Source of the DNA: a virus
IMG/VR virus record: IMGVR_UViG_3300047496_000090
Location: 1-43,189 of that record
Strand: one strand, 5' to 3'
DNA length: 43,189 nt
Every line of letters starts with the position of its first letter. Position 1 is the stretch's first letter. Positions 9,792-21,998 of this stretch are shown piece after piece. The translations under genes and the position numbers were made by a program. Below the pieces are notes generated by a model. It was not told the DNA's origin. It searched no databases and saw only the letters and a program-made list of their open reading frames with translations.

Positions 9792-10496
9792 TTAGTTAGA
9801 TTTTTTTAATCGAGCCTTTATACCGAAATTTGAAGTTTTTTTATGGCAATCAAGACATAACGTGCGACCATTTTTAATATCGAATCTAAGTTTTGGATAG
9901 TGCGCCCATTCCTTGATGTGATCTGCATTTAGTATGACGGCATTACCCTTTCCACTTCGAGAACCACATTCTTGGCAAGTATAATTATCACGCTCCCATA
10001 CTGCTTTGCGCCATTGTCTTGCCTTGAATGAATTTCGCAATCGACGATTCTTTGATGTCTTACCGCCTTGCCAATTCCAATGATTTTTTCCCATGATTGC
10101 GCGTGAGCGTTTTAGAATATTGGCTTTCGTATGAATCTTTGCAATTATCTCATCATGACGATTTGCCCACATTTTTTTGAATGAAGCAGTAGCCTTCGCG
10201 CGTACAGCAGGATTACTCATCGGATTATTGATGTAATTTCGTGCTGAAGTTCTGCATGACATAGAGCAATATTTACGATTCGGCTTATTGAATGTTCCGT
10301 CCCTTGCGATAATTTCTCCATTGCATTTTTGGCATATACCTACTACTTTTGGATACTTTCGCCTACCGTCATGAGTATGCTTATCAGCGCACTCATGTGA
10401 GCAATATCGTACGCGAGATAATAGAGACTTTTGAACATAGAATGATTTTTGACAATGAGCACATTCGATACTTGAACCAGTTTTGTGATTAGCCAT
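9792..10496 (-). CDS. HNH endonuclease with two N-terminal zinc sites
   Basis: A 234-residue protein. Two CxxC...CxxxC units (CAHC with CSHEC, CQKC with CSMSC) precede a basic linker, then a complete HNH domain: CQEC, NADHIKEWAHYPKLRF, NGRTLCLDCHKKT. The domain is close to those of the HNH proteins at 1934-2686 and 20258-20908, so the three likely share an origin. It lies between a transglycosylase-like gene and a small phage gene and is free-standing. Probable homing-type nuclease. Confidence 0.88.
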   Translation of the reverse strand: MANHKTGSSIECAHCQKSFYVQKSLLSRVRYCSHECADKHTHDGRRKYPKVVGICQKCNGEIIARDGTFNKPNRKYCSMSCRTSARNYINNPMSNPAVRAKATASFKKMWANRHDEIIAKIHTKANILKRSRAIMGKNHWNWQGGKTSKNRRLRNSFKARQWRKAVWERDNYTCQECGSRSGKGNAVILNADHIKEWAHYPKLRFDIKNGRTLCLDCHKKTSNFGIKARLKKSN

Positions 10497-20140: not shown

Positions 20141-20184
20141 ATGTTTACTGAGACACAGAATTTTAGTCTTGTCCAGACGGAGCT
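20141..20184 (+). CDS. Major capsid protein, exon 1
   Basis: Encodes MFTETQNFSLVQTE plus the first two bases of a Leu codon; the frame hits a stop four bases further, inside the intron. Joined to exon 2 at 21080 it reads VQTEL-DEVFRQNYEASLPP, which is the expected N-terminal continuation of gpT-like capsid proteins. The exon end CGGAGCT (20178-20184) pairs with the intron guide at 20195-20201, with a terminal U:G wobble at the splice site. Confidence 0.85.
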
Positions 20185-21079
20185 TAACTAATCGGGTTCC
20201 GACGGAAGTGTTCTTTGAAAACTTGATAAGTAGAGATAGCAATAGTATGATGAGTATATGGTTAATACATATGACATCTGCTCTTGTGGATTAAAAAAAC
20301 AGAAGAGAAGTCCGAGATGTCGTAAATGTTTCCTTGGTGACAAGGAGTCTTTTACAAAACATTTTAAGCGAATAGGATTTCAACCTAACTATATTCCATG
20401 GAACAAAGGATCTAAAGGTCTGACTCATTGGTCTCCCGAGCTTCGAGAAAAGAAACGTCTTTTTATCGAGAAAAATGGAGGTCCGATGAGAGGGAAAAAA
20501 CACTCCATGGAAGCACGAATGAGAACTAGTCGTGCATTGTTAGGTGAGAAGGCACCAAATTGGAAGGGAGGTATCACTATACTGAATACTCTTAGACGAC
20601 ATTCTATCGAGCATAGAGAATGGAGAGAAAAAATATTCAAACGAGATGATTACACCTGTCAAGTTTGTCTTTCGCGCGGTAAAAGATTAGAGGCACATCA
20701 TATAAGACCGTGGAGAGAAAATAAAGACCTTCAATATGATGTCGAAAATGGAATCACACTTTGCGTTCCGTGTCATCGACCAACCACAAACAAAGAAAAT
20801 CTTCTCATAGAATTTTTCCAAAAACTACTTATCATGAACACTTCCAAAAATCGGGTGAACTCAGGGAACCTCTCAGAAGAAATGAAAGAACTTCTAAGAC
20901 AATCCTGAGCCAAGCTAAAGGTTAAAATCTTTAGAAGGTGCAACGACTAGATGGTGAACCTCGAAAGAGAACATAATCCATCCACGAGCGCCCGACATTC
21001 GAAAGAATGAAGATATAGTCTGAACATTGTAGTGATACGATGAATAAGGAGATAAAGAACTTCTTTGAGTAACAAAAAG
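20185..21079 (+). mobile_element. Group I self-splicing intron in the major capsid gene
   Basis: The group I features can be read directly. P1: 20178-20184 with 20195-20201, ending in the canonical U:G. P10: CGA (21080-21082) with TCG (20192-20194). P6-like stem CTAAAG/CTTTAG just after the ORF. P7: GACTA (20945-20949, in GCAACGACTAGA) with TAGTC (21016-21020, in AAGATATAGTCTGAAC). P8: CATTC-GAAA-GAATG with a GNRA tetraloop (20996-21009) lies between the P7 strands, as it should. The last intron base is G (21079). The intron restores the capsid frame on removal and contains an HNH homing-endonuclease gene. A 3' site at 21098 would also keep frame, but lacks P10. Confidence 0.92.
20258..20908 (+). 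CDS. Intron-encoded HNH homing endonuclease, 216 aa
   Basis: Starts MVNTYDICSCGLKKQKRSPR with a zinc site (CSC and CRKC). A NUMOD-like basic block (MRGKKHSMEARMRTSRALLG) is followed by a full HNH domain: CQVC, EAHHIRPWRENKDLQYDV, NGITLCVPCHRPT. It lies in a peripheral loop upstream of P6/P7, the usual place for homing ORFs, leaving the ribozyme core free. It would cut intron-less capsid genes and so spread the intron. Related to the HNH proteins at 1934-2686 and 9792-10496. Confidence 0.9.
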   Translation: MVNTYDICSCGLKKQKRSPRCRKCFLGDKESFTKHFKRIGFQPNYIPWNKGSKGLTHWSPELREKKRLFIEKNGGPMRGKKHSMEARMRTSRALLGEKAPNWKGGITILNTLRRHSIEHREWREKIFKRDDYTCQVCLSRGKRLEAHHIRPWRENKDLQYDVENGITLCVPCHRPTTNKENLLIEFFQKLLIMNTSKNRVNSGNLSEEMKELLRQS

Positions 21080-21998
21080 CGACGAAGTCTTTCGTCAGAA
21101 CTATGAAGCTTCGCTTCCTCCGTCCTACGCGACGGCGATGACAGCGGATATCTTCAAGGTCACTGACACGACTCATGCGGCGTACATCGGTACGATCCAC
21201 AAGGGTCCGGGTCTCTTCTCGAAAATCGGCGAGGTTCAGGCAGTCCCATCTTATGTCGCGAAGGTCGCAAATAAGTGGACTGTTACCATCGCTGACTTCG
21301 CCGAAGGGATCGAAGTCTCGAAGAATCTCTTCGACGACGATATTCATGGTGAATGGCAGTCACAGGTTGCGGATTTAGCAATCATGGCCCGCCGTACCCA
21401 GGACTACAACGCCTTCAAGTTGTTCCGTGGCGCGTTTACGACCACGCTTACCGCTGACGGCGCTGCATTCATCGGCTCCCACAACCTTGTTGGTGGTGGA
21501 ACTACGAACAATCAGATCGTCACAGCTGACATCACTGGTGCTTCCTCGACCGCACTCAACACTTCCGCTTTCAACGTCGCTATGCGCCGTCTTGCTGAAA
21601 TGAAGTCGCAGGCAGGTGTTCCGTTGCAGTGCGTTGGTGACACGCTCTTGGTCCCGCCTGGCATCTACGTCACGGCTCGCCAGATCGCAGTTAGTGCCTT
21701 GGTGCCTGAGAACGGCAACAACGCAGTCAACGTCTTCTCGATGGATTACGCGGTAAAGGTCTACCAATCGGTATTCCTCGGTACTTCGTATGACTCGACA
21801 GGATCTGACACCGCTTGGTTCTTGCTTGACTCACGTCGTCATGCTGTCCGTCGCTTCGTCCGCCAAGGTGTGCAGACCGCACTTCGTGACTGGACAATGA
21901 GCAACAACCGTACGTACTACTACCAGGCGAACTTCCGCGAGGAGGTCTTCGTACCTGACTACATCGGTGTAGTTGGCGCTAAAGGAGATACTACTTAA
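21080..21998 (+). CDS. Major capsid protein, exon 2
   Basis: 919 nt; with exon 1 the spliced protein is 320 residues. It contains MTADIFKVTDTTHAAYIGTI, KVANKWTVTIADFAEGIEVS, the DDDIHGEW loop, RTQDYNAFKLFRGAFTTTLT, LLVPPGIYVTARQI and the C-terminal NRTYYYQANFREEVFVPDYI. This order is that of Mu gpT-type HK97-fold capsid proteins. Without splicing, the first in-frame ATG is 21138, which would drop about 34 N-terminal residues. Confidence 0.92.

Follow-up and report, generated by a model that had tools for sequence, protein, structure and literature searches.

The window analysed here, positions 1–43,189 of IMG/VR virus record IMGVR_UViG_3300047496_000090, contains a major capsid gene of the Mu gpT-like type that is split, 44 nt past its ATG, by an 895-nt group I intron (window positions 20185–21079; Table 1). 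Joining positions 20141–20184 (44 nt) to 21080–21998 yields 963 nt in a single frame of 320 residues with no internal stop, as the first-pass annotation had proposed from the letters alone. Its identification of the product as a major capsid protein was borne out by both Pfam and PHROG, and the spliced protein scored 55.7 bits against PF10124, well above the family cut-off of 20.1.

Table 1. Features of the interrupted capsid gene, in window positions.
Feature	Position	Strand	Evidence or remark
Exon 1 (codons 1–14 and two bases of codon 15)	20141..20184	+	L002, L003 and L004 share the start
P1: exon CGGAGCU with internal guide GGUUCCG	20178..20201	+	Sequence, minimum-energy fold, L046
Group I intron, subgroup IA features (P7.1/P7.2)	20185..21079	+	RF00028, independent model R1, covariation in relatives
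P2 5' strands (20204–20213, 20224–20233)	20204..20233	+	Two perfect 10-bp helices in the fold
HNH endonuclease ORF, 216 aa, in the P2 loop	20258..20908	+	Pfam HNH 1.6e-9; PHROG HNH endonuclease 4.3e-20
Ribozyme core P3–P8, including P7	20847..21022	+	Model R1, 151.1 bits, E 1.2e-40
P7 5' strand GACUA	20945..20949	+	Pairs with 21016–21020; both strands invariant in relatives
P7.1 (20950–20954 with 20978–20982) and P7.2 (20960–20962 with 20967–20969)	20950..20982	+	Fold, relatives
P8 with GAAA tetraloop	20996..21009	+	Fold: 20996–21000 with 21005–21009
P7 3' strand UAGUC	21016..21020	+	Partner of 20945–20949
Exon 2 of the major capsid gene	21080..21998	+	Spliced protein: Pfam Mu-like_gpT 6.6e-15, PHROG major head 5.3e-12

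An Rfam covariance-model search confirmed the group I assignment made in the annotation: RF00028 matched positions 20805–21042 over the full model length at 79.7 bits against a gathering score of 50 (E 8.8e-19), and this was the sole Rfam match anywhere in the window. The splice signals are those of a group I intron. P1 pairs 20178–20184 with 20195–20201 and places a U·G wobble (20184:20195) at the 5' splice site, P10 pairs UCG 20192–20194 with CGA 21080–21082, and the final intron base is G 21079. In sequence and fold alike, these elements, P7 and the GNRA-capped P8 lay where the annotation had put them. An alternative 5' splice site after 20185, with a possible U·G to 20194, was rejected because the frame would then require the intron to end at C21080.

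Unconstrained free-energy folding of the intron recovered P1, P2, P3, P4, P5, P6a, P7.1, P7.2, P8 and P9, and the fold of the region was 6 s.d. more stable than dinucleotide shuffles. In this fold the two P2 helices pair 20204–20213 with 20836–20845 and 20224–20233 with 20825–20834. The conserved P3–P8 core of group I introns, with its P7 pseudoknot, is present. Covariation was counted in eight related cores from other phage contigs: a structural alignment that included the window misplaced its longer P5, and the window was therefore left out and kept as an independent test. Among the eight, 97.8% of 325 cells were standard pairs and 19 of 41 pairs had changed on both sides; the covariation score was 0.440 against 0.156 for shuffled alignments (as high in 0 of 500 shuffles), and a one-column shift of the partners lowered pairing to 42–45%. 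Double changes occurred in four of the five P7.1 pairs and one of the three P7.2 pairs; P7 is invariant in the relatives and is therefore conserved but lies outside what covariation can test. A covariance model built from these eight introns, R1, found the window core (Table 1), and it also readily found several related introns that Rfam misses at its gathering threshold. Subgroup IA introns are marked by P7.1 and P7.2 between the P7 5' strand and the P3 3' strand. Both helices are present in the window intron, which we place at the IA level, with IA1 and IA2 unseparated.

The HNH ORF, which the annotation had located in a peripheral loop, lies in L2, closed by the two P2 helices. Its C-terminal part overlaps P2 3', P3 5', P4 and P5; the end of the ORF thus runs through core helices, and enzyme and ribozyme share sequence. 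The Pfam HNH match exceeds its cut-off, and NUMOD3, a common but non-obligatory companion of HNH homing endonucleases, reached 17.7 bits against a cut-off of 20.4. The HNH protein of another intron in the clade, at coding nt 29 of contig L032, resembles that of the window through the C-terminus, including the core-encoded part; the shared stretch NRVNS is encoded by P3. Searching for proteins closely related to the window enzyme gave a single weak match, and no close relative was found at nt 44 in another phage, the intron of contig L046 at that site having no ORF. Two free-standing HNH ORFs with NUMOD3 lie elsewhere in the window, at 1934–2686 and 9792–10496 (- strand; NUMOD3 of the second below cut-off), and their HNH domains are 40–46% identical to that of the intron enzyme.

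The junction is conserved in relatives that lack the intron. Contigs L002, L003 and L004 encode the start MFTExQNFS(L/I)VQTEL, are 81%, 83–90% and 52% identical to the window capsid, respectively, and are all uninterrupted at the nt-44 site. The annotation's claim depended on such relatives reading on through VQTEL-DEVFRQNYE, and these three do, with QNFS(L/I)VQTELD continuous in each. At the DNA level, the spliced window sequence GAGCT^CGACGAAGTC corresponds to GAACTCGATGAAGTG in L003.

We consider it very likely that a mobile IA-type group I intron splits the gpT-like major capsid gene of this uncultured tailed phage, splices out of its transcript and spreads by HNH-driven homing. From the anatomy, the restored frame, the conserved junction, the covariation in relatives, the shared insertion site and the intact HNH motif, we infer a splicing intron and an active enzyme that cuts at the capsid site. 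The transcript would fold into a ribozyme, guanosine would attack after U20184, and the exons would be joined at 20184/21080, after which ribosomes could read the 320-residue capsid protein. The HNH protein encoded in the P2 loop would cut or nick the intron-less capsid genes of related phages in the same cell, close to the insertion site, and repair would copy the intron into the cut gene. Few phage proteins are made in greater quantity than the capsid protein, and splicing should therefore be very efficient.

An unlikely alternative is that the intron still splices and is inherited vertically, with the HNH gene a dead or non-homing passenger. An intron without an enzyme is viable, since L046 carries an ORF-less intron after exactly the base used in the window, coding nt 44. 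This reading is opposed by the state of the gene itself, with its HNH motif and cysteine pairs intact, its frame open and its HNH-family scores between 1e-9 and 1e-20, and by the existence of close relatives (81–90% capsid identity) without the intron. It is far less probable that the intron is inactive, exon 1 a relic and the capsid translated from Met 21138, even though that codon opens a 286-residue frame. The annotation's prediction that gene callers would start the capsid at 21138 was supported. Strongly conserved positions fall within the first 33 residues of the intron-less relatives, all core helices are intact, and no purine run resembling a ribosome-binding site was found before 21138. 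Codons 1–14 differ from those of L003 by six bases, all synonymous, and this speaks for continued translation of exon 1. Least credible, with a negligible probability, is an assembly chimera that fused an intron to a capsid gene: the arrangement comes from one metagenome contig, but the intron's guide fits exon 1 and its P10 strand fits exon 2, and L046 shares both the site and the paired sequences CGGAGCU and GGUUCCG.

A DNA pattern derived from the core retrieved 51 contigs from IMG/VR, R1 identified 72 cores among those newly fetched, and interrupted gpT-like genes of this phage clade were located with a capsid profile. Twelve related introns interrupt these genes in nine contigs (the window, L003, L021, L022, L023, L026, L032, L046 and L056). 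Exons could be joined in eight of the nine, each giving an open frame; L022 ends within its intron and was placed by shared exon sequence. In window coding coordinates the introns occupy seven sites: nt 29 (L032), 44 (window, L046), 53 (L032), 300 (L026, L046), 303 (L003, L056), 308 (L021, L022, L023) and 312 (L026). The sites form two tight clusters, nt 29–53 (24 nt) and nt 300–312 (12 nt); clustering this tight arose in 10 of one million random placements, a figure to be read with the sites not being independent events. Among the 320 positions ranked by conservation, the nt 300–312 sites rank 4–27 and the N-terminal sites, less extreme, 19–78. The former are among the most conserved stretches of the capsid, which fits enzymes that recognise conserved coding sequence. 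Seven sites for one intron family suggest that the capsid gene is a favoured target.

In two of the contigs the gene carries a pair of introns separated by a very short exon. The L026 capsid gene (L026:1117-2636) holds two introns, at nt 300 and nt 312, each containing a separate HNH ORF, and the exon between them is 12 nt long (1898–1909, GACAATATGCAT, residues DNMH). Eight of the 12 bases pair with GUGCAUAU, the second intron's guide. The ORF of the first intron precedes its apparent guide GUCGAAG, which suggests that it lies in the P1 loop. A 24-nt exon separates the introns at nt 29 and 53 of the L032 gene (L032:3331-5453), the second of which is only 231 nt long and lacks an ORF. The ORF-less intron that shares the window site (L046:5550-5815) measures 266 nt; its frame and P10 (AUCU with AGAU) require a last base A where G is usual, which may be a sequencing error, decay or a real exception.

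The enzymes differ in kind and placement. The window and L032 have an HNH ORF upstream of the core, and L003 has an endonuclease-VII-like HNH downstream of it, as does L006, which belongs to another capsid family. In a tree of the cores, the nt-303 introns pair together (0.91), two of the three nt-308 introns pair (0.97) with the third, L022, apart, and the N-terminal introns group weakly (0.73–0.77). Homing to a specific site, with a jump to a new one now and then, would give such a grouping, but support is low at many nodes of the tree.

Introns of this family also interrupt or flank genes of other major head families, namely PHROG 9953 (L006, L041), 267 (L060), 1328 (L038) and 10 (L037, L029, L068), and further related introns occur at genes for DNA polymerase, a DnaB-like helicase or terminase (L053, L054, L027). 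Host genes were assigned for a sample of the introns, and the list is one of occurrences rather than a rate. A possible, though doubtful, wider reading is that one intron family has repeatedly colonised major capsid genes of unrelated families at a few highly conserved spots with different enzymes, because cutting the capsid gene of a rival would both spread the intron and block the rival's virions. Were this so, phages would be actively fighting over the gpT-like gene of this clade, which holds stacked introns and exons down to 12 nt.

Introns in phage structural genes are indeed known, as the annotation stated; its expectation that a capsid insertion would be notable is weakened by published capsid introns with homing endonucleases (PMC3706429, PMC7886860), and novelty is reduced because those of LittleE and crAss-like phages were already described. 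Mycobacteriophage LittleE has a capsid-gene group I intron with a homing endonuclease, for which spliced RNA and protein were shown (PMC3706429). It resembles the window in its major capsid location, its length of ~820 bp, its homing endonuclease ORF, and the U before and G at the end of the intron; however, its ORF is LAGLIDADG-related and on the opposite strand, its capsid is HK97-like and its host actinobacterial (PMC3706429), whereas the window has a same-strand HNH ORF overlapping the core and a gpT-like capsid. In crAss-like phages, group I introns split the capsid gene, once into five pieces (PMC7886860). The Delta/Zeta members resemble the window clade in being uncultured phages with several introns per capsid gene, but belong to another phage and capsid family, and the likeness drawn here leaves insertion positions and ribozyme family aside (PMC7886860). 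In phage PhiPA3, the intron-encoded HNH enzyme gp210 cuts an essential gene of a co-infecting rival and blocks its virion assembly (PMC11620839). As in the window, a group I intron-encoded HNH enzyme sits in a conserved essential phage gene, but the gp210 target is an RNA polymerase gene (PMC11620839). The window enzyme may likewise cut a rival's gene and block its virion assembly. IA-type introns of Staphylococcus Romulus/Remus-like and Enterocloster phages match at 80–81% over only ~50 nt of the core, and their host genes and enzymes differ.

The annotation's suggestion of a probable Patescibacteria phage was not upheld: scans with capsid and portal alignments across 84,980 bacterial and archaeal genomes found no Patescibacteria relative and a single relative overall, on a contig whose assignment to a Bacteroidia bin could be an artefact. 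Capsid genes serve as standard markers for discovering viruses, and a 44-nt first exon or internal exons of 12 or 24 nt will escape gene callers, leaving the marker truncated or split. With about a dozen alleles that lack an intron, and with seven insertion sites in a single gene, the clade would allow homing, site choice and phage–phage interference to be tested by direct comparison.

Several contigs carry dense arrays of cores. L029:3034-7694 has six group I cores in 4.7 kb around its major head gene, and L040, L052 and L068 have four or five each. At L028:377-2226, a related core (55.6 bits) lies with two HNH ORFs nearby in a gene that is capsid-like by eye and had no PHROG match at 1e-5. 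A related intron without a large ORF occupies L027:2132-2303 (- strand), near the 3' end of a terminase-like gene.
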